Below, piece after piece: positions 7,668-31,516 of a stretch of DNA of 64,000 bases. The notes under the pieces are model-generated. The model was not told where the DNA came from. It saw only the letters and a program-made list of their open reading frames with translations, and made no database searches. The first letter of the stretch is position 1. Each line of letters opens with the position of its first letter. Source of the DNA: Acidobacteriota bacterium (GTDB taxonomy: Bacteria > Acidobacteriota > Terriglobia > Acidiferrales > UBA7541); assembly GCA_013289585.1 (NCBI GenBank), contig JABCZR010000007.1, positions 62,001 through 126,000 on the forward strand, given 5' to 3'. A program made the translations under genes and the position numbers.

Positions 7668-7673
7668 GCGTTT

Positions 7674-12908: not shown

Positions 12909-12922
12909 CAAAACGAAGAACC

Positions 12923-14342: not shown

Positions 14343-14507
14343 AAGGGGTTTAGGTGCGTTCTTTCAATTGTCGAGCACTGGGGGCTTGTGTCCGGCGAGA
14401 AACTAGCTGCAAATAGCAATTTTTGGGGTAGCCGTCGTGCCCTCAAAAGTTCTGCTTTCTCGCCTCTTCGCTCGCCTTCTTTCGAACCCTTCTCGGAGAA
14501 TAACAGC

Positions 14508-17500
14508 ATGAATGAGAATCTTCGTTACGCTTCTATTTCTTGGGGTAAACCGGGAATCGCGCGCTTCCTTCTCTCCTCGCTGCTTATGCTGCTCTTCCTC
14601 CCGCTCGCATCGCGCGCCCAGGACGCCGGCTCCATCACCGGCACCGTTCGCGACTCTTCTGGCGCGGTCGTTCCCGACGCCCAGGTGACTGCCACCAACG
14701 CGACCATTGGCCTGACTCGCACCACCACTACCAACGCCGACGGTGACTATCTCGCCGCCGCCTTGCCTCCCGGTAGCTATGACCTGTCGGTCACTGCCAA
14801 GGGCTTCAAGGTCTTTCAGGCCAAAAAAATTATCGTGCGCGTCTCGGAGAAGTCCCGCGTGGATGTCACCCTTCAGGTGGGCCAGGTAACTGAAAACGTG
14901 GTCGTACAGGGTGAAAACGTCGCCCAGGTGGAAACGCAAACGTCCGAGATTTCCGGCGTCGTTACCGGTAAAGAAATCAGCCAGTTGGAATTGAACGGGC
15001 GCAACTTCACGCAACTCGTCACCCTTGTCCCCGGCGTGAGCAATCAGACCGGGCAGGATGAGGGCGAAGTCGGCCTCAACGGAAATATCTCCTACAGCAT
15101 CAACGGTGGCCGTGGCGAGTACAACAACTGGCAGGTGGATGGCGCCAACAACATGGATACCGGCTCCAACAACACGCTCGACACTTTTCCTAGTGTGGAC
15201 GCCATTGCCGAGTTCCGCGTACAAACCTCGAATTTCAGCGCCGTCTATGGCAGAAACGGTTCCGGCAACATCGAAGTCATCACCAAGTCCGGCACCAAAT
15301 CCTTCCATGGCGATGTCTACGAATTCGTGCGCAACGAAGATTTCAACGCCAACAGCTTTTTCAACAATGCCAGCTCAAGCCCCAGAGCTTCAGACAAGAA
15401 AAACGATTTCGGCTACACCATTGGCGGCCCGATCTTTATTCCCAACCATTACAACACCAACAAAGATAAGACCTTCTTTTTCTGGTCCCAGGAATGGCGC
15501 AAGGAGATCAACCCCTTTTCCTTCAACCAGCAAGTTCCGTCCAACGCCGAGCGTGGTGGCAATTTCAACGACGTTTGTCCAAACACGAGTGTAACTCCCG
15601 CCAGTTCTTCCGAATGCCCGATCAACCCCGCCACCGGCAAGGCGTATCTTGGAAACAACGTTCCCATCGATCCCAACGCCCTGGCCATGATGAACGCGCT
15701 GATTCCAGCTCCCACGATTGACAACGGTGCCAGTTCTTTCTTTACCGGTTCCGTTTCGGAGCCGCTGTCCTGGCGTCAAGAACTTCTTCGCGTGGACCAA
15801 ACCCTTGGTTCCAAGTTCCGCCTCATGGGGCGCTACATCCACGACACCTACACGAGCGTTGACCCCACCGTTAGTTTTGTCGGCAATCCTTTTCCGTCGA
15901 TTCAAACTCACATCGGCACTCCCGGCACCAGCTTTGTCCTGCATTTAACGACCACCGCAACCCCAACCCTTCTCAACGAATTCGTATTTAGCTATGCGGT
16001 TGACCACCTGAGCCTGATCAATAGCGGGCCCTTCCAGGTTCCCCAGGGCTTCACCATGACGGGCTTGTTCCCTACCGGCCCCGGTGGCACACAGTTCGCT
16101 CAATTGCCGGCTGTCGTGCTTGCCAGCGGCACGGCTTACGGCGGCGGCTTCACCGTCAATCCCGGATTTATGCCCTGGGTCAACTCCAACCCGACTTATG
16201 GCTACCGCGACACCGTCACAAAAATCCTCGGTACTCACAACATGCAGTTCGGTTTCGAGTTTATCGCCATACAGAAAAACGAGCAGAGCGCCCCGACGAG
16301 CGTCGGCCTCGGCGGTACCCTCACTTTTGACGAAAATAATTCGGTTGTCGACCCGGTGACAAACTTGCCCGTCTCTACTAAGAATTCATTTGCCGACTTC
16401 CTCCGCGGCGGCATTGCTTCCTACGCGCAAACCAGCGCGATTGTGAAGTATTACTATCGCTACAAAATTTTCGAGCCCTACTTCCAGGACGACTGGCACA
16501 TCACCAAACGTTTGACTCTGAACCTTGGCTTGCGTGTCAGCATGTTTGGAACAAATCGCGATATCACCAAAACCTCTTTCAATTTCGAACCCGCTGTCTA
16601 CAACGCTTCCCCGGGAACCGCGCCGCAGCTGGCCAGCGATGGCAGCCTCGTCACGGGGGTCGGAAACCCGTTCTTGGGATTTGTCCAATGCGGAGGTTCA
16701 GGGGGCACTTCCAATGTTCCCTCTGCGATACTCACCGCGTTCCCAGCCTCCACTGTCGCGGGCTCCTCTTATCCGGGCTGCGTGAAAGGCCATCTTTTCA
16801 ATCCGGGGCCGCGCCTCGGATTCGCGTTCGACCCCCACGGTAATGGCAAGTCCGCCATTCGCGGCGGTTACGGTATTTTCTTCGAGTACGGCAATGGAAA
16901 CGAAGCCAACGCCGAATCCCTGGAAGGAACGCCTCCCCGCGTTCTCACAACCAGCCAGCCGAACGTCGCGGCCGGGCAGGGTTCGTGCGCAACCACTGGG
17001 AGCGGCTATACGTGCATTGGCGGTCAGGCTGAACTCTTCCCGTTGTCCGTCAACAATGAGCCACCCGCGAATATCCAGACCAAGGCCGCCTGGCCTTACG
17101 TCCAACAGTGGAACCTCAGCTACCAGTTCGAGCTGCCCCAGAATTTTGTTGGCTCGGTGGCCTATGTGGGCAGCAAAGGAACCCATTTGACGGACGCCCG
17201 CGACCTCAACCAGCTCCACAGCCTGCCCCTGTCCCAGAATCCATACCTTCCTGGACAGGCGATCACTCCGCAGCTGAAGGATGCGAATGGCAACGTCACC
17301 TACGCCGGCGACTGCTCCACACTCACAGTTGGGCCCGGGGGAGCCCCGATCACCGGGCCAGCCCTCGTGAACTTTAACGTTGCATGCGGCAACGACCCCA
17401 ATCCGTCTCGGCCTTACCTGGGTTTCGGAACCCTCGAATTTCTCGAAACCGCCGCCAACTCCAGCTATAACGCTCTCCAAGTGAGCTTCCGTCGCACTCT

Positions 17501-18173
17501 CGGTGCGCTTATCGTGAATGCGGCTTACACCTACAGCCACTCCATCGATGACTCTTCCGATCGCAATGACATCACCTTTGTCGACTCCTACAATCTTGCC
17601 AACAATCGGGCCAGCTCGAACTTCGACCAGCGGCACATCCTGAACATCAGCTATGTTTACGATTTGCCGTTCTTCAGCAAATCTTCGGGGTGGAAGAAAG
17701 CCCTTCTGGGAGGCTGGCAGTGGTCGGGTATCGCCATCTTTCAAAGCGGAGTCCCCATCAACCTCACCAATAGCGTCTTTGGCGACAACGCCGGCGTTGG
17801 CAACGGTGTTGGCACCGGCTCGCGTCCGGACCTCGTCGGCAGCGCCGCGACCACTCCCTGCCAGGCTTCCACGGCTCCCGGTCCTTATCTCTTCAATCCC
17901 TGCGCATTTGCTGCTCCGCAAGGGCTGACCTTTGGAAACGTCGGAAGGAACTCCTTGAATCTCCCCCATCGTACAAATTTTGACATGGGGCTGTTCAAGC
18001 GCTTCCCGGTGAAGGAAGCCATGTCCTTCGAATTCCGGCTGGAGACGTTCAACACTTTCAACCACACTGAGTTCTCCGCCGTGGATCGTTCCTTTGGTTC
18101 AAGCACTTTCTTGACGGCAACATCGGCGCACGATCCTCGGATCTTGCAACTGGGCTTGAAGTTCCTGTTCTAA
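14508..18173 (+). CDS. TonB-dependent receptor, Oar-like, with carboxypeptidase-regulatory domain
   Basis: About 1221 residues. ATG 14508 has GGAG 9 bases upstream and gives a signal peptide (FLLSSLLMLLFLPLASRAQ). An N-terminal carboxypeptidase-regulatory-like beta-sandwich follows (GSITGTVRDSSGAVVPDAQV, about 45-130). The plug domain carries LNGRNFTQLVTLVPGV near residue 165 and the barrel fills the rest, ending LQLGLKFLF with the terminal Phe needed for outer-membrane insertion. This architecture is the greatly expanded Oar-like family of Acidobacteria. Members are thought to take up large substrates such as oligosaccharides. It has its own promoter and strong terminator, so it is probably monocistronic. 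A paralogue sits at 35.9-39.5 kb. The ligand is unknown. Confidence 0.92.
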   Translation: MNENLRYASISWGKPGIARFLLSSLLMLLFLPLASRAQDAGSITGTVRDSSGAVVPDAQVTATNATIGLTRTTTTNADGDYLAAALPPGSYDLSVTAKGFKVFQAKKIIVRVSEKSRVDVTLQVGQVTENVVVQGENVAQVETQTSEISGVVTGKEISQLELNGRNFTQLVTLVPGVSNQTGQDEGEVGLNGNISYSINGGRGEYNNWQVDGANNMDTGSNNTLDTFPSVDAIAEFRVQTSNFSAVYGRNGSGNIEVITKSGTKSFHGDVYEFVRNEDFNANSFFNNASSSPRASDKKNDFGYTIGGPIFIPNHYNTNKDKTFFFWSQEWRKEINPFSFNQQVPSNAERGGNFNDVCPNTSVTPASSSECPINPATGKAYLGNNVPIDPNALAMMNALIPAPTIDNGASSFFTGSVSEPLSWRQELLRVDQTLGSKFRLMGRYIHDTYTSVDPTVSFVGNPFPSIQTHIGTPGTSFVLHLTTTATPTLLNEFVFSYAVDHLSLINSGPFQVPQGFTMTGLFPTGPGGTQFAQLPAVVLASGTAYGGGFTVNPGFMPWVNSNPTYGYRDTVTKILGTHNMQFGFEFIAIQKNEQSAPTSVGLGGTLTFDENNSVVDPVTNLPVSTKNSFADFLRGGIASYAQTSAIVKYYYRYKIFEPYFQDDWHITKRLTLNLGLRVSMFGTNRDITKTSFNFEPAVYNASPGTAPQLASDGSLVTGVGNPFLGFVQCGGSGGTSNVPSAILTAFPASTVAGSSYPGCVKGHLFNPGPRLGFAFDPHGNGKSAIRGGYGIFFEYGNGNEANAESLEGTPPRVLTTSQPNVAAGQGSCATTGSGYTCIGGQAELFPLSVNNEPPANIQTKAAWPYVQQWNLSYQFELPQNFVGSVAYVGSKGTHLTDARDLNQLHSLPLSQNPYLPGQAITPQLKDANGNVTYAGDCSTLTVGPGGAPITGPALVNFNVACGNDPNPSRPYLGFGTLEFLETAANSSYNALQVSFRRTLGALIVNAAYTYSHSIDDSSDRNDITFVDSYNLANNRASSNFDQRHILNISYVYDLPFFSKSSGWKKALLGGWQWSGIAIFQSGVPINLTNSVFGDNAGVGNGVGTGSRPDLVGSAATTPCQASTAPGPYLFNPCAFAAPQGLTFGNVGRNSLNLPHRTNFDMGLFKRFPVKEAMSFEFRLETFNTFNHTEFSAVDRSFGSSTFLTATSAHDPRILQLGLKFLF

Positions 18174-18189
18174 GTCAGAGTTCAACTCA

Positions 18190-18223
18190 GGGCGGTCCGG
18201 CACGGTCGGACCGCCCTTTTTTT
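18190..18223 (+). terminator. Strong rho-independent terminator of the first TonB receptor
   Basis: A perfect 10-base stem, GGGCGGTCCG at 18190-18199 with CGGACCGCCC at 18207-18216, and seven T at 18217-18223. It starts 16 bases after the receptor stop codon. Confidence 0.93.
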
Positions 18224-18262: not shown

Positions 18263-19165
18263 ATGCGGCGCATGAATCGACGCACATTTATTGGCTCATC
18301 CATCGCAGCAGCTACACTCACCGCCGCGCGCCCCTCGTGGGCCGCGGATTCAACCCATCACATCGACCGCATCGGCTTGCAGCTTTACACCGTGCGCGAG
18401 TTCATGAAGACCGACTTCGCCGGCACCATCGCCAAAGTCGCCGCAGTCGGCTACAAGGAAGTCGAGTTCGCCGGCTACTTCGATCATGCTCCGAAGGACG
18501 TCCGCGCTATTCTCGACAAGGTTGGCCTAGCCGCTCCTTCGTGCCACGTCGGCTACGACGTCGTCGAGAAAAAGTGGCCCGAAACTCTTGACGCCGCGAA
18601 AATTGTTGGCCACAAATATGTCATCTGCCCGTGGATCGACGAGAAGCAGCGAGTCGAACCCGATGGCTGGAAGCGCGCTGCGGATCTGTTCAATCGCGCA
18701 GGCGAAGCCAGCAAAAAAGTTGGCATTCAGTTCGGCTACCACAACCACTCGTTCGAATTCGATCCCGCTCCGTCGCTCGGCGGGAAACTTCCTTACGATT
18801 TTCTCCTCGCCGAAACCGATCCAAAACTCGTGGTCATGGAAATGGATCTCTGCTGGATCAGCGTCGCCGCCAAGGATCCCCTCGGTTACTTCGACAAGTA
18901 TCCCGGCCGCTTTCCGCTCGTCCACGTGAAAGACTGGGTGAAGGATGCCACCACGCCGAGCGCGTACCAGGGTGCGATGGGCCAGTCCGTGAAATTCGGC
19001 GGCCGCATGGCGGACGTCGGACAAGGCTCCATTGACTGGAAAAATCTTTTCGCGCGCGCGGAAAAAGCAGGTATCAAACACTATTTCGTGGAAAATGACG
19101 ATCCCAAATCGGCTTTCGAAGACATAAAAATCAGTTACAACTACCTGTACGATTTGAAATTCTGA
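18263..19165 (+). CDS. Tat-exported sugar isomerase/epimerase-like TIM-barrel protein
   Basis: About 300 residues. The N-terminus carries a twin-arginine signal (NRRTFIGSSIAAATLTAARPSWA). The rest is a xylose-isomerase-like / AP-endonuclease-2 TIM barrel: IGLQLYTVREFM at strand 1, VEFAGYFDHA at strand 2, and metal-ligand-type residues in FGYHNHSFEF, MEMDLCWISV and PLVHVKDW. These families isomerise or epimerise sugars at a divalent metal. ATG 18263 has GGAAAG 6 bases upstream; ATG 18272 is an alternative. It is first of a plus-strand run with DUF1080 (32 bases on) and the Gfo/Idh/MocA gene, all convergent with the GMC operon. Tat export places it in the periplasm, so a free rather than phosphorylated sugar is likely. 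Exact substrate unknown. Confidence 0.87.
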   Translation: MRRMNRRTFIGSSIAAATLTAARPSWAADSTHHIDRIGLQLYTVREFMKTDFAGTIAKVAAVGYKEVEFAGYFDHAPKDVRAILDKVGLAAPSCHVGYDVVEKKWPETLDAAKIVGHKYVICPWIDEKQRVEPDGWKRAADLFNRAGEASKKVGIQFGYHNHSFEFDPAPSLGGKLPYDFLLAETDPKLVVMEMDLCWISVAAKDPLGYFDKYPGRFPLVHVKDWVKDATTPSAYQGAMGQSVKFGGRMADVGQGSIDWKNLFARAEKAGIKHYFVENDDPKSAFEDIKISYNYLYDLKF

Positions 19166-19197
19166 AACTTCTCGACGGAAAGACAGGAGTTGCTGCG

Positions 19198-19872
19198 ATG
19201 CCGAAAACGCCCGCGCGCAAAATGCTCGTCGCCTGTTTCCTCGCCTCCTTTTTTCTTCTTGCCGCCGCGCGCCCGCAAACTTCCGCATGGAGACCGCTGT
19301 TCAACGGCAAGGATCTCACCGGCTGGAAGCACGTTGGTCCCGGCAATATGACCGTGGAAGACGGCCTCATTCGAACGCATGGCGGCATGGGACTTCTCTA
19401 CTGGACTGGCGGAAAACTCGGCGATTGCCGCATCCGTGTGGTCTACAAGATGCGCGACCATAACGATAATTCCGGCGTCTTCATTCGAATCCCTCTCGAG
19501 CCGCGCGAGGAGTGGATGCCCGTCCACTACGGCTACGAAGTGCAAATCGACAATCAGCCCGAAGATTCCAAGGAAGACGAGTATCATGTCACCGGCACGC
19601 TGTATTCCCTGACAAAACCCAAAGCACGCCCCGGAAAACCCGGACCGGAGTGGAATACCATGCTCATCACTCTGGACGGACCGCGCACCATCGTTGTGCT
19701 CAACGACGTTACCGTCACCGATTACACCGAAGGTCAGCCCGTTCCCGAGCGCAAATTCGATTTCGAGCCGCAGCGCGGCACGCGCCCGAATGAAGGCTAC
19801 ATCGGCCTGCAGAATCACCCTGACAACGACATCGTTTTCTTTAAAGAGGTCAGCGTTCAGCCGTTAAAGTAG
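19198..19872 (+). CDS. DUF1080 protein (3-keto-disaccharide hydrolase family)
   Basis: A 224-residue secreted protein with a Sec-type signal peptide (KMLVACFLASFFLLAAARPQ) and one DUF1080 jelly-roll domain. Family hallmarks are WRPLFNGKDLTGWKHVG at the start of the domain, NDNSGVFIRIP in the middle, GYEVQIDNQ, and GYIGLQNHPDNDIVFFKEV at the end. Characterised family members act on 3-keto-glycosides made by GMC or NAD-linked sugar 3-dehydrogenases, cleaving or hydrating the oxidised glycoside. AGGAG about 9 bases before ATG 19198 supports the start. Its place beside Tat-exported isomerases, a Gfo/Idh/MocA protein and GMC oxidoreductases is the main contextual support for a keto-sugar pathway. 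Confidence 0.88.
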   Translation: MPKTPARKMLVACFLASFFLLAAARPQTSAWRPLFNGKDLTGWKHVGPGNMTVEDGLIRTHGGMGLLYWTGGKLGDCRIRVVYKMRDHNDNSGVFIRIPLEPREEWMPVHYGYEVQIDNQPEDSKEDEYHVTGTLYSLTKPKARPGKPGPEWNTMLITLDGPRTIVVLNDVTVTDYTEGQPVPERKFDFEPQRGTRPNEGYIGLQNHPDNDIVFFKEVSVQPLK

Positions 19873-20039
19873 TTTTATTTGTATTTTTATTTCTAAATTT
19901 CCAGTTTCTCGTCTCCTGGCCTTTGGTTTATGGTTCCCGGTTTTGGTTTGCAAGTTTTGGCTCGATGGCGTCAATGCTGATTTTTGTTCTCCGATCTCTG
20001 ATCACTGATCTCTGATCTAAATTTCTTCAGGAGCGCACG
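19873..20039 (+). other. T-rich intergenic leader before the Gfo/Idh/MocA gene
   Basis: 167 bases without a gene. The first half is T-rich low-complexity sequence with repeated GGTTT-like words. The second half holds the 7-base tandem repeat described separately and an AGGAG before the next gene. Confidence 0.5.
19993..20018 (+). repeat. 7-base tandem repeat upstream of Gfo/Idh/MocA gene
   Basis: GATCTCT, GATCACT, GATCTCT and GATCT follow each other with a 7-base period, ending 21 bases before ATG 20040. The same 26 bases with one change occur at 24044-24069 in the same orientation relative to the GMC gene. Confidence 0.75.
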
Positions 20040-21389
20040 ATGAAAAAAGATCTTTCCCGCCGCCAATTCCTTCACCGCACGGCCGGTGCGGCCGGCGCGC
20101 TCGCGGCAGCGCCAACGATTTTTCTCCAGCCGGAGTATATTTCGCTGCCGCTGCAGAATGTAGCACCAAGCGATCGCCTGCGCTTCGGAATCATCGGAAT
20201 CGGCATGCAAGGTTCCGGCTTGCTCACCAATGCCATCCAATTGCCGGGCGTTGAATGCGTCGCGGCTTGCGATCTCTACGACGGCCGGCACTTGCTCGCC
20301 GTGGAAATTGTCGGCAAGAAAATTCCTACTACGCGCCGCTACCAGGATCTCCTCGACAATAAAGAAATCGATTGCATCATCGCCGCCGTTCCCGATCATT
20401 GGCACAAGCAAGTGGTCGTGGACGCCGTGAGCGCTGGAAAAGACATCTATTGCGAAAAGCCGATGTCGCATTCCGCCGCGGATGGCGTGGCCATGGTCGC
20501 CGCGGCGAAAAAGACGGGCCGCATCGTGCAAATCGGTTCCCAGCGCGTCAGCTCCGTCGTGTGCACCAAAGCGAAAGAACTTCTTGCTTCCGGAATCATT
20601 GGCACCCTCACGCTGGTCGAAGGATCGCTGGGACGCAACGATCCGACTGGTGCGTGGGAATACCCGCCGCCGCCCGATCTCTCGCCCGCAAATCTCGACT
20701 GGGTCACGTGGCAAGGCACGGTTCCCCAGGTGCCGTTTAATCCCAACATTTTTGCGCGTTGGCGCTGCTGGAAGGAATACGGAACCGGGCTCGCCGGCGA
20801 TCTGCTCGTTCACCTCGTCAGCGGCATGAACTACATGCTCGGATGGAACACCCCGCCAAAAAAGGCGATGGCTCTGGGCGCCATTATTCGATTCCCGGAC
20901 GGCCGCAACATGCCGGACGTGCATGCCACGCTCTTCGATTACGGCGGCCCGCCGGTTTATCTGCGGCTGAATCTCGGGTGCGATACGCCGGAGATTTACC
21001 GCTTCCAAGGCTCTAAGGGAATCCTGGAAGTCACGGAGTACGCCATTTCGTACTTTCCGCAATCCGGCCAGGATGAATCGCCCAGCTACTACACCGTCAG
21101 CTATCCCAAGGCCATGCGCGAAGCGTATGCCGCGCAATGGCACCAGGAGCATGATCCCAAGCCCGGCAAGGAGCCTGTTGCGCAGGGCTGCGTCTATCGC
21201 AGCATCTCCTGGGACGAGGAAAAACCGCATCTCTGGAAATTCTTCCAGGGTGTGAAAAACCACCAGCCAGTCACCGAGGATGCCGTTTTCGGCCACAACG
21301 CCGCGCTCGCCTGCCACATGGCCAACGAGTCCTATTTCCGCAACTCCGCCGTTACCTGGGACGCGGCCACCAATCAAATCAAATCCTGA
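20040..21389 (+). CDS. Tat-exported Gfo/Idh/MocA family oxidoreductase
   Basis: A 449-residue protein with a twin-arginine signal (SRRQFLHRTAGAAGALAAAP). The Rossmann NAD(P)-binding motif is LRFGIIGIGMQGSG near residue 50. The family EKP motif is in DIYCEKPMSHSAADG near 140. The C-terminal alpha/beta substrate domain includes KEYGTGLAGDLLVHLVSGMNYMLGW. These enzymes oxidise or reduce sugars and some Tat-exported members keep a tightly bound nicotinamide and act as redox-neutral glycosidases or epimerases. AGGAG lies 8 bases before ATG 20040. A periplasmic location with no free NAD(P) makes a bound cofactor likely, which is inference. Confidence 0.9.
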   Translation: MKKDLSRRQFLHRTAGAAGALAAAPTIFLQPEYISLPLQNVAPSDRLRFGIIGIGMQGSGLLTNAIQLPGVECVAACDLYDGRHLLAVEIVGKKIPTTRRYQDLLDNKEIDCIIAAVPDHWHKQVVVDAVSAGKDIYCEKPMSHSAADGVAMVAAAKKTGRIVQIGSQRVSSVVCTKAKELLASGIIGTLTLVEGSLGRNDPTGAWEYPPPPDLSPANLDWVTWQGTVPQVPFNPNIFARWRCWKEYGTGLAGDLLVHLVSGMNYMLGWNTPPKKAMALGAIIRFPDGRNMPDVHATLFDYGGPPVYLRLNLGCDTPEIYRFQGSKGILEVTEYAISYFPQSGQDESPSYYTVSYPKAMREAYAAQWHQEHDPKPGKEPVAQGCVYRSISWDEEKPHLWKFFQGVKNHQPVTEDAVFGHNAALACHMANESYFRNSAVTWDAATNQIKS

Positions 21390-21439
21390 GCAGGTCTGCA
21401 GCTCAGCCAGCGGGAGGAGCGGATGGGAAAGGAAAAAGC

Positions 21440-21467
21440 AGATCCCTCACTCTGTTCGGGATGACAG
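21440..21467 (+). repeat. REP-like palindromic repeat (CCCTCACTCTGTTCGGG core)
   Basis: The stretch GATCCCTCACTCTGTTCGGG followed by ATGACA has CCC/GGG ends and resembles small interspersed palindromes seen between genes in Acidobacteria; this resemblance is from memory. It sits in the gap between convergent genes. Confidence 0.35.
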
Positions 21468-21493
21468 AATGTCGGACTAAGGTGAGCGCGAGC

Positions 21494-21515
21494 GGCCCGC
21501 CTGGGAAGGCGGGCC
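21494..21515 (+). repeat. Perfect 9-base hairpin between convergent genes
   Basis: GGCCCGCCT at 21494-21502 pairs with AGGCGGGCC at 21507-21515 around GGGA. No T-run follows on either strand. It is followed by CTACAAGGA, like the hairpin at 22202-22222, so it looks like a repeat family that may also stop transcription from both sides. Confidence 0.55.
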
Positions 21516-21529
21516 CTACAAGGACACAA

Positions 21530-22129
21530 TCAAGATTCCGGGACGGGTGGGCAGCCGGGGAATTCGCGGAGGGAGGTGTTGCCGATGTAGCCGAGGTCGG
21601 CGATGCCGATCTTGCTGGTGTAGAAGCCGTCGCAGGTCATGCGGCGGAGGAAGGCGAAGAAGGCGACTCCCTGGCTTAGGGCGGGATCCTGCTTGGCATT
21701 TTCGCGGTAGGCGATGAGATCGAGCACGATGTTTTTTTGCTCGGGGGTGCATTCCAGGAAGATTTTGCCGTAGCGGTCGGTGCAGAGGCCGTCGAGCCAG
21801 AAGAGGCCACCACCAAGCTGCAATTGATACTCTTCATTTTCGCTGGTGAGCAAGTCGATGAATTCGGGGGCGCCGGCTTCTACTGCGCCGCCGGATTTTT
21901 CGTCTTTGGGGATGATGGCGTCGCACAGGGCGATTAATGTGGCGTATTGCGGGGCGGGAAAATATTTCGGGGTGTAGGCGCCGCCGGCAGCGGCGGATTT
22001 TTCTTTGTGCACCATCTGGTGGACGTATTCGGCGGCTTCGGCGGGAATTACCTGGAGGACGGAACCACCGGCGGCGGTGACGGCGAGAGTGCGGAGGATG
22101 TCGCGGCGGGAGATACCTTCATTAGTCAT
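21530..22129 (-). CDS. Gluconate 2-dehydrogenase subunit 3 family protein (Tat), GMC partner
   Basis: A 199-residue protein with a twin-arginine signal (SRRDILRTLAVTAAGG). It is the small, Tat-tagged subunit type that escorts FAD-dependent GMC dehydrogenases across the membrane; the family core FPAPQYATLIALCDAIIPKDE near residue 58 and the C-terminal DGFYTSKIGIADLGY are typical. GAGGG lies 5 bases before ATG 22127-22129. It follows the first GMC gene on the same strand after a 177-base gap holding hairpin repeats. The pair is likely a membrane- or periplasm-located sugar dehydrogenase such as glucoside 3-dehydrogenase, which is inference from family. Confidence 0.85.
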   Translation of the reverse strand: MTNEGISRRDILRTLAVTAAGGSVLQVIPAEAAEYVHQMVHKEKSAAAGGAYTPKYFPAPQYATLIALCDAIIPKDEKSGGAVEAGAPEFIDLLTSENEEYQLQLGGGLFWLDGLCTDRYGKIFLECTPEQKNIVLDLIAYRENAKQDPALSQGVAFFAFLRRMTCDGFYTSKIGIADLGYIGNTSLREFPGCPPVPES

Positions 22130-22201
22130 TATATCCCTCGCAAATGAGAATAAAAAGATTGAACACAGAGTTCACAGAGGATACGGAGAGCGCGGAGAGG
22201 A

Positions 22202-22222
22202 GGGCGCAGCGGTGCTGCGCCC
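22202..22222 (+). repeat. Perfect 9-base hairpin repeat in the GMC operon gap
   Basis: GGGCGCAGC at 22202-22210 and GCTGCGCCC at 22214-22222 form a stem with a 3-base loop, followed by CTACAAAGGATGACA. A second inverted repeat, ATCCCGA (22240-22246) with TCGGGAT (22252-22258), comes next. The trailing CTACAA word matches that after the hairpin at 21494. Confidence 0.55.
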
Positions 22223-22306
22223 CTACAAAGGATGACAACATCCCGAGCGGGTCGGGATAAATGCTGCCGCTGCTGCAGATACGGGGAGAGGTGCATCGCG
22301 CGGACA

Positions 22307-24010
22307 TTAGACGTTGCCTTTCTGGGCTTCGGCTAGCAGGTATTCGGAGGCGCGCCAGGAGAGGGCCATGATGGTCAGGGTGGGGTTTTTGTCGGGATTG
22401 GTGACCAGCGGGGCGCCGTCGGTGACGAAGAGATTTTTCACGTCGTGGGCCTGGCAGTAGCCGTTAAGGACGGAGGTCTTGGGGTCGGCACCCATGCGGG
22501 CGGTGCCGACTTCGTGAATGATTTTTCCGCCTTCCTGGATGCCGAAGGGATACTGGCCGTCGATGGCAGTTTTGGTTTTGTATTCGCCGCCCATGGCTTC
22601 GACGATGGCGCGAAACGTCTCCTGCATGTCTTTTGCCTGGCGCAATTCGTATTCCGACCATTTGAAATGAAAGCGCAGCGCGGGGATGCCCCACTGGTCG
22701 ACGACGTCGGGATCGAGTTCGCAGTAGGTGTCGGGGTTGGGAATCATTTCGCCGCGGCCGGCGAAACCGATGCTCGTTCCGTAGGTTTCGCGGGCGCGTT
22801 GTTTCAGTTTTGCGCCGTAGCCTTCTTCGTTATTGCAGAGACCGTCGAACATGCCGACGCCGGGCATGTGGAAGCCGCCGCCGAATTCGATGTGATAGCC
22901 GCGGGGAAAATCATTTTTGCGGTCGAATTTCCACCACGGAATGTACATGTGCATGTCGTTGGCGCCGTCATGATTGTGGTGCGGCATTTTTTCAAGCCGG
23001 GGAATGTGGCCGTAGCCGCTGCTGCCAACGGAATCGGTGAGATAGCGGCCAACTGTGCCGGAGGAGTTGGCGAGGCCGTTGGGAAAGCCGGAAGACTTGG
23101 AATTCAGCAGCAGGCGCGCAGATTCGCAAGCGCTGGCGGCGACGACAATGGCGCGCGCGTGGATGCGTTTTTCGGTGCGCGTAGCCTTGTCAATGTAGGA
23201 GACGGCTTCGGCTTTGCCTTCCTTGTTGACGATGATTTCGCGGGCCATGGCGCCGGTAATGAGCGTGAGCTTCCCTGTTTTCATAGCGGGAGGAAGCAGG
23301 ACCTGGCTGGAGCTGAAATTGGAGCCGGTGACGCAGCCGCGGCCGCACTGGCCGCAGTAATGGCACGGAAGGCGGCCGTTCAAAGAGCGGGTCAGAATGG
23401 CCATGCGCGAAGGGATACAGATGATGTTGAGCTTGTCGCAGGCTTTTTTTACGAGGAGTTCAGTGCATCGCGGCTTGGGAGGAGGGAGAAAAACGCCGTC
23501 GGGCGCGCTGGAGACGTTCTCTTTGGTGCCGAAGACGCCGATGTAACCTTCGACTTTGTCGTAGTAGGGGGCGAGATCTTCATAGGTGATGGGCCAATCG
23601 TCGCCGAGGCCATCGCGCGTGGCGGATTTGAAGTCGATGGGAGAAAAACGTAAGGCGATGCGGCCCCAGTGATTGGTGCGGCCACCGACGATGCGTGAAC
23701 GAAACCACTGGAAATTGGCGCCAGGGGCGGAGGTGTACGGTTCGCCTTCGATCGTCCAAGCCCCGTTGGGGGCCAGGAATTCGCCGAAATTCTCGCGAGC
23801 TTTTCCACCGACGCCGGCTCCGCGATGCGGCAGTTCGTAGGGCCACATCAGCATTTTGAAATCTTTTTCAGGATTGACGTTGGGACCGGCTTCGAGCAAG
23901 GCGCAATTCAGGCCGCCTTCGGTGAGGACTTTCGCGGCCATGCCGCCGCCTGCGCCGGAGCCGATGATGACGACGTCGTACGGTTTGGGAGAACGAATCA
24001 CCTGAGCCAT
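22307..24010 (-). CDS. GMC family FAD-dependent sugar oxidoreductase (catalytic subunit 1)
   Basis: A 567-residue GMC oxidoreductase. The FAD-binding Rossmann motif is YDVVIIGSGAGGGMAAKVL at residues 11-29. A Cys-rich segment, CHYCGQCGRGC near residue 216, matches the place where FAD-dependent glucose and glucoside dehydrogenases hold an iron-sulfur cluster. The C-terminal HEVGTARMGADPKTSVLN and ALVTNPDKNPTLTIMALSWRASEYL close the FAD site, with His/Asn catalytic residues expected there. No signal peptide, so export must ride on the Tat-tagged small subunit encoded downstream. It probably oxidises a sugar hydroxyl, perhaps C3 of a glycoside, passing electrons to a quinone or cytochrome. AGGGAG lies 11 bases upstream. 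It shares the architecture of the GMC gene upstream of it. Confidence 0.9.
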   Translation of the reverse strand: MAQVIRSPKPYDVVIIGSGAGGGMAAKVLTEGGLNCALLEAGPNVNPEKDFKMLMWPYELPHRGAGVGGKARENFGEFLAPNGAWTIEGEPYTSAPGANFQWFRSRIVGGRTNHWGRIALRFSPIDFKSATRDGLGDDWPITYEDLAPYYDKVEGYIGVFGTKENVSSAPDGVFLPPPKPRCTELLVKKACDKLNIICIPSRMAILTRSLNGRLPCHYCGQCGRGCVTGSNFSSSQVLLPPAMKTGKLTLITGAMAREIIVNKEGKAEAVSYIDKATRTEKRIHARAIVVAASACESARLLLNSKSSGFPNGLANSSGTVGRYLTDSVGSSGYGHIPRLEKMPHHNHDGANDMHMYIPWWKFDRKNDFPRGYHIEFGGGFHMPGVGMFDGLCNNEEGYGAKLKQRARETYGTSIGFAGRGEMIPNPDTYCELDPDVVDQWGIPALRFHFKWSEYELRQAKDMQETFRAIVEAMGGEYKTKTAIDGQYPFGIQEGGKIIHEVGTARMGADPKTSVLNGYCQAHDVKNLFVTDGAPLVTNPDKNPTLTIMALSWRASEYLLAEAQKGNV

Positions 24011-24043
24011 GGCAACTGTTTCTCCCTGTAATGCCGGCGCCGG

Positions 24044-24069
24044 AGATCAGAGATCAGTGACCAGAGATC
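24044..24069 (-). repeat. 7-base tandem repeat upstream of the GMC gene
   Basis: On the minus strand this reads GATCTCT, GGTCACT, GATCTCT, GATCT, identical in 25 of 26 bases to 19993-20018. It ends 33 bases before the GMC start codon, in the same orientation relative to the gene. Confidence 0.75.
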
Positions 24070-24127
24070 AGTAAAGAAAGATGTTGGCACTGATCTTGCT
24101 GCTGTTTCGGCGCACACGATTCCGGCG

Positions 24128-25813
24128 CTAGAGTTCATTTTTCTTCATCGAGGCAACGGCGAAGTCGCAGGCGCGAGCGGTGAGCGCCATGTAAGTGAGA
24201 GAGGGATTCACGCACGAAGAGGAAACCATGGCAGCGCCATCGGTCATAAAAAGATTTTTGGCGTCGTGGGCCTGATTGTTGGCGTTGAGCACGGAAGTTT
24301 TGGGATCGCGGCCCATGCGCGCGGTGCCCATCTCGTGGATGGCCAGGCCGGGCGGAGTGATTTTCTGCCAGACGTGGATATCCGTGGCGCCGCCGGCAGC
24401 GAGAATTTCCGCAGCCTGGATGGCGATGTCCTTGGACATGGCGTGTTCGTTCTCGCTCCAGTCGCAGTGAATTTTGAGCGTGGGAATGCCCCAGGCGTCG
24501 AGTTTTTCCTTGTCCACTTCGACGTAATTGTTGTGGTTGGGGAGGCACTCGCCAAAACCTCCCATGCCGAGGTGCCAGGGGCCGGGCACTTTGAGCTGAT
24601 TTTTGAAATCTACGCCGAGGCCAGACATGTCCTTGCCGCGGGCCCAGCCGGCGCGGCCGCCGCCGCCCTGATAGCCGTAGCCGCGAAGAAAATCTTTCTG
24701 TTTCGAATTGACGTTTCGAAAGCGCGGGATGTAAATGCCATTGGGGCGATTGCCGAAAGGCATTTTGTCTTCGTGGCCGGGCATTTTGCCGCTGGCGCCG
24801 GAGCCCATGTGGTGGTCCATGAGATTGTGGCCAAGTTCGCCGCTGCTGTTGGCGAGGCCATTTGGAAATTCGGGCGTGGAGGAATTGAGGAGAATGCGCG
24901 TGGATTCAAGCGTGGAGCCGCAAACGAAAAAGATACGCGCTTTGAACTCGAGAGCATTCTTTGTCTGCGCGTCAATCACGCGAACAGCGCTAACGCGGCG
25001 CGAATTCGAATCATAGATGAGGCTGTGAACCACGCTGTAAGGCCGCATCGTGAGCTTGCCGGTTTTTTGCGCGGCGGGGAGAGTCGAACTCAAACTGCTG
25101 AAATAAGAGCCGGTGATGCAGCCACGATGACAGAAGCCGCAGTAGTGGCAGGCGGCGCGGCCCTTGTGGACGCGGGTAAGAACGGCAGCCCGGCCAATGG
25201 TCACGATGCGGTCGTTGAAATTTTTGGCGACGGCGGCGCGGAGGTCCTGTTCGACGCAAGTGAATTCCATCGGTGGAAGGAATTTTCCATCGGGGAGCTG
25301 CGGCAGACCTTCGGCCTGGCCGCTGATTCCGGCGAACTCCTCGACGTAGTCGTACCATGGGGCGAGATCCGCGTAACGGATTGGCCAGTCGACGGCTATT
25401 CCGTCTTTCAAATTGGCTTCGAAATCGAGATCGCTCCAGCGATAGCTCTGGCGGCCCCAGGTGATGGATTTGCCGCCGACCTGGCGTCCGCGAATCCAGG
25501 AGAAATGTTTGCCGGGAGCGGAAGAGTAGGGATTTTCCTGGTCATTGACGAAAAACTGATGGGAGTATTCATCGCAGGCGTAGTAGACCTCGCGCTGGAT
25601 GGGCTGGACGCGCTCGCGCTCGAAGCGATTGTCCCAGCCGCGGTGCTTGAGTTCCCAGACGGGGACGTGCTCGACGTAGTCGCGCTCCGGGACGATGGAA
25701 CGGCCCGCCTCAAGAACCAAAGTGTTGAGGCCTTTTTCGGTGAGTTCTTTCGCCGCCCAGCCCCCGGTAATGCCCGAACCGATGACGATTGCGTCGTACG
25801 TAGTAGTGGCCAT
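24128..25813 (-). CDS. GMC family FAD-dependent sugar oxidoreductase (catalytic subunit 2)
   Basis: A 561-residue paralogue of the GMC gene downstream. FAD motif YDAIVIGSGITGGWAAKEL at residues 6-24; iron-sulfur-type segment CHYCGFCHRGC near residue 220; C-terminal HEMGTARMGRDPKTSVLN and VNPSLTYMALTARACDF. No signal peptide. It starts 15 bases after the stop of the Tat-tagged small subunit gene, with GGAG 5 bases before ATG 25811-25813, so the two are translated together and probably form one complex. Having two different GMC/small-subunit pairs in one operon suggests two substrates or a sequential or heteromeric use. The specificity cannot be read from sequence. Confidence 0.9.
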   Translation of the reverse strand: MATTTYDAIVIGSGITGGWAAKELTEKGLNTLVLEAGRSIVPERDYVEHVPVWELKHRGWDNRFERERVQPIQREVYYACDEYSHQFFVNDQENPYSSAPGKHFSWIRGRQVGGKSITWGRQSYRWSDLDFEANLKDGIAVDWPIRYADLAPWYDYVEEFAGISGQAEGLPQLPDGKFLPPMEFTCVEQDLRAAVAKNFNDRIVTIGRAAVLTRVHKGRAACHYCGFCHRGCITGSYFSSLSSTLPAAQKTGKLTMRPYSVVHSLIYDSNSRRVSAVRVIDAQTKNALEFKARIFFVCGSTLESTRILLNSSTPEFPNGLANSSGELGHNLMDHHMGSGASGKMPGHEDKMPFGNRPNGIYIPRFRNVNSKQKDFLRGYGYQGGGGRAGWARGKDMSGLGVDFKNQLKVPGPWHLGMGGFGECLPNHNNYVEVDKEKLDAWGIPTLKIHCDWSENEHAMSKDIAIQAAEILAAGGATDIHVWQKITPPGLAIHEMGTARMGRDPKTSVLNANNQAHDAKNLFMTDGAAMVSSSCVNPSLTYMALTARACDFAVASMKKNEL

Positions 25814-25828
25814 TTTTTCTCCGTCTGA

Positions 25829-26431
25829 TCAGCCGTTGCCGAGACCGGGGCCGCGCGGCACGCAGCCGTGCTGTGCTCCGGGAATAATTTCAAGTTTAAG
25901 CTCCTGTGTAAAACCGATTTCAGAAGTGTAATAACCATGGAGCGTGATGCCTTTGAAGATGGTAAAAAAATTACCCTGGAGCTGCTGGTCGCGGCCACCC
26001 GGCTCGTAATCGGCAGGGCGAGGGGGGAGGCCGATCGATGCGAACGCGGCGGCTTCATCCATGGCGCGAAGCAAGACGAGTTGCTGGTCGGGAGAGGCAG
26101 CGACGAAATCTTTCCCGAAGAGCTCGCTGCTTTTTTTGTCCACGCCGGCGAGACCATCGAGGAAGGACTGGCGCTCTGCATCGGTGGCCCATTCGGTGAG
26201 GATGACGTCGATGAATTCGTTGACGAGCGCGCCCTTGGCGCCGGGCGTGTCGGTGGCGGGAATAATTTGATCGGTCATGGCGACAACAGTGGCGTTCTGG
26301 TGCGGGTTGAGCGTTCGAAGGGCGTAGCCTTCGGCAGGATGCGCGGTTCGAAAGAAAGCGAAGAGATCGGGAGTGAGAGCGGGTAATGCAGCTCCCGCGG
26401 AAAGAATTCGTAACATGTCACGCCGTTGCAT
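25829..26431 (-). CDS. Gluconate 2-dehydrogenase subunit 3 family protein (Tat), second GMC partner
   Basis: About 200 residues from ATG 26429-26431, chosen for GGAGG 4 bases upstream and because the protein then begins with a Tat signal (QRRDMLRILSAGAALPAL). The core LNPHQNATVVAMTDQIIPATDTPGAKG and the C-terminal FFTIFKGITLHGYYTSEIGF are family hallmarks. It overlaps the end of the isomerase gene by 14 bases and is followed by the GMC gene after 15 bases, indicating coupled translation. It should act as the export escort and structural partner of that flavoprotein. Confidence 0.85.
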   Translation of the reverse strand: MQRRDMLRILSAGAALPALTPDLFAFFRTAHPAEGYALRTLNPHQNATVVAMTDQIIPATDTPGAKGALVNEFIDVILTEWATDAERQSFLDGLAGVDKKSSELFGKDFVAASPDQQLVLLRAMDEAAAFASIGLPPRPADYEPGGRDQQLQGNFFTIFKGITLHGYYTSEIGFTQELKLEIIPGAQHGCVPRGPGLGNG

Positions 26432-27365
26432 AGAACCTCCGTGAGTGGATCGCGTTGGAAGATTGTTTTTTCTCTGAGCGGCCAAACTTCAGGGCCATTT
26501 CTCGGGCGGCGCGGAGAGAGGCTACGGTCTCGCCTTTAGGTTCAAATTCCATGGCGACGTAGCGGTTGTAGCCAAGTTCGCCGAGGGTTCGAAAGATATT
26601 GGCGAAATTGATTTCGCCGGTGCCGGGTTCGTGGCGGCCGGGAACATCGGCGACGTGAACGAGGCCGACGAGATCGAGATTCTTTTGGAGCTTGGCGATA
26701 AGATTGCCGGCGGCGATTTGTTCATGGAAGAAATCGTAGAGAAATTTGACGTGGGGATTGGCGACGGAGCGGACGATTTCGAAGCCTTCGGCGGAAAGAG
26801 TGAGAAAATATTTGGGGTTCTCCTCGGGGTCGATGTTTTCGATGAGGAGTTCGATGTTATTTTCCGCGGCGATATCTCCGCCGTGCTTGAGAGTCTCGAC
26901 GCAATTGGCGTGCATTTCTGCGCGCGAAAGGCCGGGGACGGCGTCGCCCGTCTGCATGATGAGGCGGGTGCATTCAAGCTCGCGCATGGTGGGAATAAAT
27001 TCGCGGAGGGACTTGAGGAAGAGTTCGCGGGCAGAAGCGTCCGCGAGGGGCTGCCAAACGCCGGTGGTGCCATCGAAAACGATGCCGAGTTCCAGCTTTT
27101 TCCGGCGGGCGTCGGCAAAATCCTGTTTTTTCCAGTCCTTAAATTCGCCCACCAGCTCGACGGCGTGATAGCCAGCTTCGGATACTTTTTCGAGGCGCTG
27201 TTCGAATGGAAGATTGCGGTAGACAGTCCAGAGCATCACGGAAAGGGAGAAGGGTACATCGCCTGTTTCAGAGGCGGAAGGCATGTCATGCGCCATGGCA
27301 GAAGGGGCGGCGACACCCGCGAATGCCGCAGCCGCACAGGTTCCGACGAATTCCCGTCTTCGCAA
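26418..27365 (-). CDS. Tat-exported hydroxypyruvate-isomerase-like TIM-barrel protein
   Basis: About 315 residues if TTG 27363-27365 is the start: GGGAG lies 6 bases upstream, the start is 1 base past the stop of the previous gene, and the protein begins right at a Tat signal (RRREFVGTCAAAAFAGV). The ATG 30 bases upstream has no ribosome site. The body is a xylose-isomerase-like barrel: LSVMLWTVYRNLPFEQRLEKV, then HAVELVGEF, LLIENIDPEENPKYF and FLYDFFHEQIAAGNL, with VGLVHVADVPGRHEPGTGEINF near the end. This pattern matches the hydroxypyruvate isomerase group of the family. A Tat signal points to the periplasm and a sugar substrate rather than glyoxylate metabolism. Coupled to its neighbours on both sides. 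Confidence 0.85.
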   Translation of the reverse strand: MRRREFVGTCAAAAFAGVAAPSAMAHDMPSASETGDVPFSLSVMLWTVYRNLPFEQRLEKVSEAGYHAVELVGEFKDWKKQDFADARRKKLELGIVFDGTTGVWQPLADASARELFLKSLREFIPTMRELECTRLIMQTGDAVPGLSRAEMHANCVETLKHGGDIAAENNIELLIENIDPEENPKYFLTLSAEGFEIVRSVANPHVKFLYDFFHEQIAAGNLIAKLQKNLDLVGLVHVADVPGRHEPGTGEINFANIFRTLGELGYNRYVAMEFEPKGETVASLRAAREMALKFGRSEKKQSSNAIHSRRFYATA

Positions 27366-27366
27366 A

Positions 27367-28503
27367 CTATTCTCCCAAAAGTTCTTTGCGTACATTTTTC
27401 AGAACGTAAGCCGCGCGCTCGACGCCAACTTCTCCGGTAAGAATCGGGTCTTCGTTTTCGATGCTGAGGATACCTTCGTAACCGATGTCCATGTAGGCCT
27501 TGATGACGGATTTCCAGAGGCTGGCGCTGTGGCCGTAGCCCACGGCGCGGAAAGTTTCGGAGGCGGAATCGAGATCACTTTTTTCGAAGGCAAAGTTCAA
27601 GACGCCATACTTATTGACGTTTTCGGGATAGAAGGTGGTGTCCTTCATGTGCGCGTGAAAGATGGCGCCCTGCTTGCCGAGGAAATGGATGACTTCAACG
27701 GGATCGCAGCCCTGCCAGAAGAGATGACTCAAATCGCAGTTGGCGCCAATCTCTTCGCCGACGGCTTCGCGGAGTTTCATGAGCGTGCGCGGATTGTAGA
27801 CGACAAAGTTGGGGTGCATCTCGAGGGCGAGGCGCTTGATGCCATGATCGCGCGCGTACTTGGCGGCGTCCTTCCAATAGGGGATGACTTTTTCTTTCCA
27901 TTGCCAGTCTTGCATTTGGGCGTACTCGGCGGGCCAGCGATAAGTGATCCAGTTGGGCTGAGTGTCCTGGGGTGTGCCGCCGGGACAGCCGGAGAAGCCG
28001 ACGATGACTTTGATGTCGAGCATTTCGGCGAGGAGGACGGTCTTGCGAAAGGTGTCGATGTCTTTTTTTGCGTTCGTGACGTTGGGACTCACGGGGTTGC
28101 CGTGGCAACTGAGAGTGGCGACGCGGATTCCCCGGTCTTCAAATTTTTTTTGCCAGGCTTTGGCCTTGGCGCGGTCGGCAACGAGTTCGTCGAGAGGACA
28201 ATGACGATTATTGGGATAGCCGCCGGTGCCGATTTCCATGGCTTCGAGGCCGAGGGCGGTGACTTTGTCGAGCATGGCGTCGAGGGAAAGATTTTCGTAA
28301 ACGGGATCGAAAACGCCGATGGGGATTTTGCGTAGAGTGCTTGCGGGATGCGGATCGGGAGAGCTGTGCGCGGAGGCGGGGAGAGGGGAGCCAACGACTT
28401 CGGCGATGCTGGCAGAACCCGGCACGGCAGCGGCGAGCAGACCACCGGTAGCAGCGAGAAACTGTCTCCGGTCGAGCGCGGAGTCCTTGCGCGGCTTCTT
28501 CAT
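27367..28503 (-). CDS. Tat-exported sugar isomerase/epimerase-like TIM-barrel protein, operon head
   Basis: A 378-residue protein with a twin-arginine signal (DRRQFLAATGGLLAAAVPGSA). It is a xylose-isomerase-like barrel: LDAMLDKVTALGLEAMEIGTGG at the first helix and second strand, LSCHGNPVSP, KVIVGFSGCPGG, LALEMHPNFVVYNP, NCDLSHLFWQG and IFHAHMKDT, with Glu, Asp and His in the metal-ligand positions of the family. GAGGAG lies 6 bases before ATG 28501-28503. It is the first gene of a minus-strand run continuing through isomerase, small subunit, GMC, GMC and small subunit, and a sigma70-type promoter lies just upstream. The substrate is probably an oxidised or keto sugar, which is inferred from context. 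Confidence 0.87.
   Translation of the reverse strand: MKKPRKDSALDRRQFLAATGGLLAAAVPGSASIAEVVGSPLPASAHSSPDPHPASTLRKIPIGVFDPVYENLSLDAMLDKVTALGLEAMEIGTGGYPNNRHCPLDELVADRAKAKAWQKKFEDRGIRVATLSCHGNPVSPNVTNAKKDIDTFRKTVLLAEMLDIKVIVGFSGCPGGTPQDTQPNWITYRWPAEYAQMQDWQWKEKVIPYWKDAAKYARDHGIKRLALEMHPNFVVYNPRTLMKLREAVGEEIGANCDLSHLFWQGCDPVEVIHFLGKQGAIFHAHMKDTTFYPENVNKYGVLNFAFEKSDLDSASETFRAVGYGHSASLWKSVIKAYMDIGYEGILSIENEDPILTGEVGVERAAYVLKNVRKELLGE
27372..27376 (-). promoter_or_regulatory. Ribosome binding site deciding a TTG start
   Basis: GGGAG on the minus strand, inside the last codons of the upstream gene, lies 6 bases before TTG 27363-27365. It suggests termination-reinitiation across the TAG at 27367-27369. 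Confidence 0.5.
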
Positions 28504-31339: not shown

Positions 31340-31516
31340 GTCCATTCGAAAGCTGCCCAATCGGCTCCATATTAAAGATACCTCCAGAGCCATGAAGCTG
31401 GAGAGGAAAGCGCGTCAGAGGTTTCACCAAACGAAATAGCGGATGCGTGAACAGGAAAACAAAATCAGCTGGAGAAAAGGAAAAAGGAAGAGCGATGACG
31501 AGAGGTCCGCCGGTCA

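Follow-up and report, generated by a model that had tools for sequence, protein, structure and literature searches.

A nine-gene acidobacterial locus probably encoding an exported 3-keto-glycoside pathway with two classes of GMC dehydrogenase

We propose that a nine-gene locus of a soil acidobacterium encodes an exported 3-keto-glycoside pathway of oxidation, elimination, hydration and reduction, a reading that we consider probable. The locus lies at positions 18263-28503 of the window, by which we mean the whole 64,000 nt stretch that was analysed (Acidobacteriota bacterium GCA_013289585.1, contig JABCZR010000007.1, positions 62,001-126,000, forward strand; GTDB lineage Bacteria; Acidobacteriota; Terriglobia; Acidiferrales; UBA7541). 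The original prediction had placed nine genes here and named their families, and Pfam analysis bore this out: nine ORFs were confirmed, three of PF01261, one of PF06439 (DUF1080), one of GFO_IDH_MocA, two of PF13618 and two of GMC type, each protein clearing the curated threshold set for its main family. What follows on catalytic activity, substrate, electron acceptor and cellular location is our inference.

In the proposed scheme the glycoside would be oxidised at C3 by two GMC/PF13618 dehydrogenases whose small subunits take them through Tat, and the electrons would travel through FAD, and perhaps through an iron-sulphur cluster, to an acceptor whose gene lies outside the locus. The keto group would acidify the C2 proton, and TIM1, with its His-x-His metal site, would eliminate the aglycone to leave a 2-hydroxy-3-keto-glucal; DUF1080 would be another cleaving enzyme, with a different specificity. 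TIM3 would then hydrate the glucal to a 3-keto-sugar, and the Tat-exported Gfo/Idh/MocA protein (GFO), with NAD(P) bound before export, would reduce this sugar or shift hydride between sugars, while TIM2 may epimerise or isomerise the keto-sugar.

The dehydrogenase pairs are encoded on the minus strand, as the FAD dehydrogenase large subunits GMC-A (24128..25813) and GMC-B (22307..24010), both with GMC domains, and the small subunits sA (25829..26485; PF13618, 9e-32) and sB (21530..22129; PF13618, 7e-29). Judging from its orthologues, sA most likely starts at the ATG at 26431 (MQRRDMLRIL...) rather than the TTG at 26485. GMC-A carries the Cys motif C222-C225-C228-C232 together with H493 and N536, all invariant across eight aligned sequences (the window's own included), and GMC-B has a C-x2-C-x2-C-x3-C motif from C216 with H499 and N542. 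GMC-A matches the FDH large subunit 8k6k (E 1.5e-40) and GMC-B matches BcGDH 6a2u (E 7e-44), over the length of the GMC proteins and with His and Asn aligned. Two features of glycoside 3-dehydrogenases of the LacABC/GlycDH type were found, namely a PF13618 partner with a Tat motif and a large subunit of GMC type that bears the FAD motif and the catalytic His and Asn. Families, motifs and FDH/BcGDH matches support the earlier suggestion that the pairs are of the glycoside 3-dehydrogenase kind, which is the best reading of these sequences. Neither sA nor sB matched any NCBIfam family or, at E up to 1, the sequences of the solved FDH/BcGDH small subunits; for the sB model (pLDDT 78.9) Foldseek found nothing at an E threshold of 0.001, and the best Z score in a structural comparison was 3.2, so that no PDB match was convincing. 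In Caulobacter, LacA is presumably the GMC protein, LacC the PF13618 protein and LacB a cytochrome. A LacB-like cytochrome c, a feature of LacABC-type clusters, was not found here by a search for one family, PF13442, which counts against the reading: none of its 20 matches in the genome falls inside the window, and the sole one on the contig is at C7:30353. A cytochrome is present in the relatives L115 and L163. Two long ORFs with a CxxCH motif occur in the window, beyond the LacI gene.

The nearest solved relatives of the GMC proteins are fructose and glucose dehydrogenases, which would suit complexes acting on free sugars, on sugar acids or on alcohols of other kinds (like gluconate, sorbose or fructose dehydrogenases) and only loosely linked to TIM and DUF1080 genes, a reading that we regard as quite improbable. 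We took 80 GMC-A relatives from named genomes among the matches listed. In the stretches around them, a small subunit was found in 74/80, a TIM in 47/80, GFO in 24/80, DUF1080 in 17/80 and all five kinds in 14/80; for the 49 stretches of at least 18 kb among the matches listed, the counts were 46, 29, 19, 12 and 12, respectively. That no TIM was detected near 33, about two in five, and no DUF1080 near 63 of the 80 relatives among the matches listed argues against strict linkage and is in keeping with free-sugar oxidation. Against it stands the repeated co-location, in several phyla, with the 3-keto-disaccharide hydrolase family and eliminase-type TIMs; moreover, many of the listed loci that lack the full set are cut by contig ends.

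GMC-A and GMC-B share 44% identity. A FastTree tree was built from 165 sequences, sampled with GMC-A as the seed. In it GMC-A clusters with Acidobacteriota and Gemmatimonadota, Bacteroidota being more distant, whereas GMC-B sits apart, in a clade with 30 acidobacterial leaves out of 32 (the leaves L063 and L064 are probably duplicates of the sources of L041 and L047). As the two occupy separate clades, a recent tandem duplication was ruled out. The deep split would also fit two pairs that differ in position or substrate, one acting at C3 of glycosides and the other on another hydroxyl or a free keto-sugar, a diketo or 2-keto product then being the substrate of TIM2. G035 and G033 have the two pairs on different contigs, and in L145-L147 class-B pairs accompany TIM1 and TIM3 without class A. 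We take this division of roles as a serious though not the favoured possibility. In other phyla, however, both classes lie beside DUF1080, GFO and TIM genes, class A in Xanthomonas sacchari and Pedobacter hartonius and class B in Pseudoalteromonas donghaensis, in line with one shared chemistry applied to different glycosides.

The three barrels had been taken for xylose-isomerase-like isomerases, a description that suits TIM2, with its isomerase/epimerase signature, better than TIM1 and TIM3, which look like a beta-eliminase and a hydratase. TIM1 (18263..19165, plus strand; PF01261, 1.4e-12) matches AtOGE 8bvk at E 7e-19 over residues 37-284; five PDB entries score better, among them 3l23 and 3obe, uncharacterised by title. 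Its match to 8tct (E 4e-26) aligns an HNH motif, and H160, H162, D195, H221 and E277 are each conserved in at least 90% of 53 aligned rows. Matched by motif and order, this H-x-H, D, H, E series follows the metal and base residues H132, H134, D163, H189 and E233 given for AtOGE (PMC10628242), and TIM1 is predicted from sequence to be an AtOGE-type 3-keto-glycoside beta-eliminase.

TIM3 (27367..28503, minus strand) found only 2zds and 3wqo by phmmer against the PDB at E up to 0.001, and no close sequence relation to AtHYD was seen. Its model (pLDDT 85.6) is nearest to 2zds, of unknown function (Z 33.9), and to AtHYD 8ro4 (Z 32.3, rmsd 2.3 over 296), the next structure scoring Z 27.7. AtHYD thus stands, with 2zds, above other TIM barrels, a shared fold that by itself shows no function. 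Residues E228, H230, D257, H285 and E349 are conserved in at least 90% of 63 rows. We predict from the model that TIM3 is an AtHYD-type 2-hydroxy-3-keto-glucal hydratase. TIM2 (26418..27395, minus strand) matches TIGR03234 at E 1.7e-43, scoring 148.8, far below the equivalog cut-off of 353.45; it also matches 3ngf (E 1.4e-25) and the 3-keto-D-glucoside 4-epimerase 6wn6 (E 4e-9). With E186, D221, H247 and E283 conserved in at least 90% of 53 rows, it keeps the isomerase/epimerase signature and appears to be of the hydroxypyruvate-isomerase or ketose-epimerase type. Since TIM1 matches AtOGE and the TIM3 model lies near AtHYD, the "isomerases" of the locus are probably mainly lyases and hydratases.

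DUF1080 (19198..19872, plus strand; PF06439, 1.7e-42) scores 146.1 bits against a cut-off of 26.8 and is the only PF06439 match found in the genome, which is 97% complete. Its membership of the 3-keto-disaccharide hydrolase family supports the role on 3-keto-glycosides assigned to it earlier; its match to 8tda is weak (E 6e-4). GFO (20040..21389, plus strand; PF01408, 8e-19), a predicted 3-keto-sugar reductase or transhydrogenase, matches the NCBIfam glycoside 3-dehydrogenase family BT_2158_fam at E 4e-33 with a score of 114.7, far below the equivalog cut-off of 750, and 8tdf at E 7e-23 over residues 40-264. It is likely to be an exported reductase.

Twin-arginine signals had been read on the three TIMs, GFO and both small subunits, and all six pass our Tat test, a motif rule (RR motif plus hydrophobic stretch) and not a trained predictor. 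The test set comprised 38 ORFs taken as genes: DUF1080, GFO and the 36 left from a list of 44 once two antisense and six short ORFs had been removed. Seven passed, six among the nine genes and one among the other 29. When the N-termini of the six were shuffled, 7 to 76 of 2000 passed. The motifs recur among orthologues: in 21/21 rows for sB (two being distant paralogues), in 7/7 scored orthologues for GFO, in 9/11 rows for TIM2 and in 22/25 for sA, the two TIM2 and three sA rows without a motif reflecting a wrong start chosen by the script. DUF1080 begins with the Sec-type signal expected of it, and the genome encodes TatC. The N-termini of GMC-A and GMC-B have no RR motif. Proteins without a signal can hitch-hike through Tat on signal-bearing partners. 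As the GMCs lack signals, they would be exported only if the small subunits carry them, and nearly all products of the nine genes are predicted to be exported.

How far the pathway runs outside the cytoplasm is a separate matter. It could lie wholly outside, with Tat-exported GFO reducing by means of captive NAD(P), two GMC classes covering different glycoside ranges, electrons harvested for respiration and only the finished sugar imported; we advance this form of the scheme tentatively. On contig C17 of the same genome an SSF symporter, a hydratase-type TIM, a GFO, a second TIM and an FGGY kinase are consecutive. As this hydratase-type TIM and GFO look cytosolic and accompany a symporter, the last steps could be cytosolic: oxidation and cleavage alone would occur outside, the 3-keto-sugar would enter through the sodium:solute symporter to be finished by the C17 enzymes, and the exported GFO and TIMs would act on other keto-sugars. 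Elsewhere, too, signal-less TIM and GFO proteins are paired with a permease or MFS protein. The nine-gene set, however, holds no inner-membrane transporter and no signal-less enzymes but the GMCs, and GFO bears its Tat signal in every orthologue scored; we find a cytosolic finish no easier to credit than the wholly external route.

The cassette is conserved among genus-level relatives, so that the original prediction is not refuted by its own criterion, a gene order that recurs nowhere. We counted 26 stretches with a GMC-A orthologue, scoring a gene as present when a match over a set identity lay in the stretch and including frame-broken copies (for example sA in L047, GMC-A and GMC-B in L058, and TIM2 in L035); genome G014, with a GMC-A orthologue on a contig of 3,778 bases, was left out. 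sA lies beside GMC-A in 26/26 relatives and TIM3 is present in 22/26, and where there is room GMC-B occurs in 19/23 and sB in 17/21. Less constant than this GMC core are TIM2 (13/26), DUF1080 (6/15), GFO (7/15) and TIM1 (8/14). All nine types share one locus in L144, from one genome of a second acidobacterial family. Against the proposed reading, genomes G034 and G004 carry TIM3, TIM1 and PBP together, and at the limits used neither GMC-A nor GMC-B was matched there. Across the class, 171/399 genomes have a GMC-B relative at an E threshold of 1e-150. TIM3 matches, found in 181/399, were rejected as a measure of the spread of the system, as the lower-identity ones differ: among the matches listed, fragments aside, those under 57% identity lie at about 40-48%, and in many the match starts close to residue 60 and lacks the exported N-terminal part.

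Upstream of TIM1 lies TBDR1, a TonB-dependent receptor (14388..18173, plus strand; Pfam OMP_b-brl_4 2e-187, Plug 5e-6) and possibly a glycoside importer, found in 5/13 relatives with room; a 13-pair hairpin with a T run (18189-18217) lies between the two genes. Promoter-like sites were about as frequent as in shuffled sequence (3 versus 3.8). PBP (30437..31393, minus strand; PF13407, 2e-31), a sugar-binding-protein domain upstream of TIM3, is present in 17/21 relatives with room, the neighbouring gene at 28711-30231 in 0/21. PBP likely starts at MKKLRFL..., has no DNA-binding domain in the Pfam scan, no Sec-like start by eye and no Tat motif in 21/21 rows, and may be a cytosolic sensor.

Each step of the pathway is already known from other bacteria. 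A gut-bacterial glycan pathway of oxidation, elimination, hydration and reduction, with oxidation by NAD-dependent GFO enzymes, is said to have been described by Nasseri in 2024, and we take the 8tc and 8td series of PDB entries to come from it. TIM1 and GFO match these entries and DUF1080 does so weakly, whereas the FAD-GMC complexes are an addition here. Pedobacter hartonius L115 shares the RR motif on a TIM1-type protein (twice), a small subunit, a GFO and a TIM2-type protein, and also shares GMC and DUF1080; it differs in its single GMC pair, its cytochrome c and its extra GFO and TIM without signals, and has a 416-aa transporter-looking protein besides. The original prediction held the arrangement to be undescribed, which overstated the case, as related clusters of Caulobacter and Agrobacterium are in print (PMC9007349, PMC10628242). 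Caulobacter has LacABC and DUF1080 with two epimerases and a reductase (Price 2022, PMC9007349), and fitness data link LacABC and DUF1080 to lactose use there; in Pedobacter 0/10 DUF1080 genes had a lactose phenotype, for which the authors suggest redundancy. Compared by description with Caulobacter crescentus, the present locus has two GMC pairs that belong to different clades and bears Tat motifs on its TIM and GFO proteins, and the window contains no PF13442 cytochrome. The Agrobacterium tumefaciens operon is described as comprising GlycDH, an oxidoreductase and two TIM barrels, and the Rhizobium counterpart of GlycDH was purified with a TAT-pathway signal protein (Nat Commun 2023, PMC10628242). 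Both loci have a dehydrogenase, eliminase-type and hydratase-type TIMs and a Gfo reductase, a likeness based on sequence for TIM1 and AtOGE and on the model for TIM3 and AtHYD; DUF1080, TIM2 and the second GMC pair are additional here, as are, by description, Tat motifs on TIM1, TIM3 and GFO. Literature searches brought up no description of the two-GMC-pair arrangement. What sets this locus apart is the presence of two long-separated GMC classes in one place, with no cytochrome found beside them and no cytosolic step in the locus.

Only recently has the non-hydrolytic cleavage of glycosides by way of 3-keto sugars been recognised, and this locus and its relatives suggest a version of it in soil Acidobacteriota in which nearly all enzymes are exported and two dehydrogenase classes take part. 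The analysis gives candidate functions to TIM barrels that annotation often labels sugar isomerases. If the scheme is true, it would show a way for these bacteria to use glycosides that needs no classical glycosidase, and would reveal how a nicotinamide enzyme can work in a compartment lacking an NAD(P)H pool.

The nine genes at 18263-28503 were present as described in the original prediction and comprise, by Pfam family, three xylose-isomerase-like TIM barrels (TIM1-TIM3), one 3-keto-disaccharide hydrolase (DUF1080), which is the only DUF1080 found in this genome, one Gfo/Idh/MocA protein (GFO), two GMC oxidoreductases (GMC-A and GMC-B) and two PF13618 small subunits (sA and sB). Two groups of genes converge. 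The + strand carries TIM1, DUF1080 and GFO downstream of a TonB-dependent receptor (TBDR1), with a hairpin-plus-T site between receptor and TIM1, and the - strand carries TIM3, TIM2, sA, GMC-A, GMC-B and sB in that order. As TIM3, TIM2, sA and GMC-A overlap or are at most 15 bases apart, and the gaps ahead of GMC-B and sB are 117 and 177 bases, the coordinates indicate that the - strand group is likely a single transcript. Elsewhere in the window are a glycoside hydrolase family 3 gene (5349-7724, -), a second TonB-dependent receptor (35901-39584, -) and a LacI-type regulator (39894-41129, +); 5 of the 26 relatives also have the LacI gene close to the cassette. Upstream of TIM3, the gene PBP (30437-31393, -) encodes a sugar-binding-protein domain that has neither a Tat motif nor a DNA-binding domain; its product may sense sugars in the cytosol.

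Both GMC proteins align across their length with the large subunits of fructose and glucose dehydrogenases, retain the expected His and Asn (H493/N536 in GMC-A, H499/N542 in GMC-B) and carry a C-x2-C-x2-C-x3-C motif that may hold an iron-sulphur cluster. TIM1 matches by sequence the Agrobacterium beta-eliminase AtOGE (PDB 8BVK), whose metal ligands are H132, D163, H189 and, weakly, E233, with H134 as base (PMC10628242); TIM1 retains H160, H162, D195, H221 and E277, which correspond to these residues by motif and order. The model of TIM3 (pLDDT 85.6) is nearest in fold to 2zds (Z 33.9) and to the Agrobacterium hydratase AtHYD (8ro4, Z 32.3), the next row scoring 27.7; AtHYD was not found from TIM3 by sequence alone. 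TIM2 retains E186, D221, H247 and E283 and resembles hydroxypyruvate isomerase and, weakly, the 3-keto-D-glucoside 4-epimerase 6wn6. Based on these sequence and fold matches, the route likely proceeds from oxidation through elimination and hydration to reduction, where TIM2 would contribute an isomerisation off the main line and DUF1080 a second means of cleavage.

By a motif rule, 7 of the 38 ORFs taken as genes carry a predicted Tat signal, six of them in the locus, and DUF1080 has a Sec-type start. The RR motif recurs in all orthologue rows of TIM1 (8/8), TIM3 (23/23), GFO (7/7) and sB (21/21, including two distant paralogues), and in 22 of 25 for sA and 9 of 11 for TIM2, the misses being wrong starts picked by the script. 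In related dehydrogenases the large subunits ride on Tat-signalled small subunits, and the absence of the motif from GMC-A (28 rows) and GMC-B (21 rows) would be expected if both are carried in this way. The genome holds one TatC match. Completion of the later steps in the cytosol is a serious rival to this exported arrangement, since contig C17 of the same genome encodes consecutively a sodium:solute symporter, a hydratase-type TIM, a GFO, another TIM and an FGGY kinase, with no export motifs by eye. This cluster (6999-13915 of the stretch C17:116000-130903) has the look of a cytosolic end section for a pathway of this kind. On contig C11, also of this genome, a second tandem Tat-signalled GFO and TIM-barrel pair lies at 5076-7371 of C11:25000-40000, a stretch in which no GMC gene was read.

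Conservation of the predicted exported set was followed in 26 stretches, the window excluded, with a GMC-A orthologue of at least 65% identity (25 from the same genus, one from another genus of the family; G014 was omitted for its short contig); the genomes compared are mostly fragmentary. Alongside GMC-A, sA was found in 26/26, TIM3 in 22/26 and TIM2 in 13/26; where enough contig was available, GMC-B was found in 19/23, sB and the signal-less PBP each in 17/21, TIM1 in 8/14, GFO in 7/15, DUF1080 in 6/15, TBDR1 in 5/13 and the gene at 28711-30231 in 0/21. A GMC-A match at the limit used was missing from 5 of 36 genomes of genus g1, this one counted. The pairs are separable: three stretches (L046, L048, L052) carry sA/GMC-A with the rest of the locus missing, and L060 carries TIM3/GMC-B/sB with GMC-A missing. 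One stretch (L144), from a genome of another family, contains every one of the nine types, arranged differently; eight of them were Pfam-checked. In three further stretches (L152-L154) orthologues of TIM3, TIM1 and PBP, the last in two copies each, occur together with no GMC or small-subunit gene, which suggests that such barrels also serve a GMC-free route.

In a tree of 165 GMC sequences, GMC-A shares a clade with sequences from Gemmatimonadota and, at greater distance, from Bacteroidota; GMC-B falls in a clade of 32, of which 30 are acidobacterial. Among the 80 listed GMC-A relative loci in named genomes, the stretch held no TIM gene in 33 (about two in five), no GFO in 56 and no DUF1080 in 63. 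In the annotated stretch of Hymenobacter volaticus a B-like gene is accompanied by a small subunit, but TIM, GFO and DUF1080 genes are absent. Also outside Acidobacteriota, Pseudoalteromonas donghaensis encodes a B-like enzyme (48%) in a cluster of GFO, TIM, MFS, DUF1080, small subunit and TIM, and Xanthomonas sacchari an A-like enzyme (52%) with TIM, small subunit, DUF1080, cytochrome c, TIM, GFO, permease, TIM and LacI; judging from these clusters, either class can form part of one and the same type of pathway. The two classes also occur together on each of the named MAG contigs L065 and L075.

Published accounts connect the use of lactose by Caulobacter with LacABC and DUF1080, with periplasmic cleavage proposed and no lactose phenotype for Pedobacter DUF1080 genes (Price 2022, PMC9007349), and describe an Agrobacterium operon and four-step route (PMC10628242), an analogous route for levoglucosan that employs PF01261 and GFO enzymes (PMC10066097) and an FAD-dependent glucoside 3-dehydrogenase whose electrons pass to a mono-heme cytochrome c (PMC9915066). 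In view of these accounts the locus is a variant of an already described kind of pathway; it differs in that no PF13442 cytochrome was found in the window, in that the nine-gene set contains neither an inner-membrane transporter nor a predicted cytosolic enzyme, and in that two GMC classes stand side by side.
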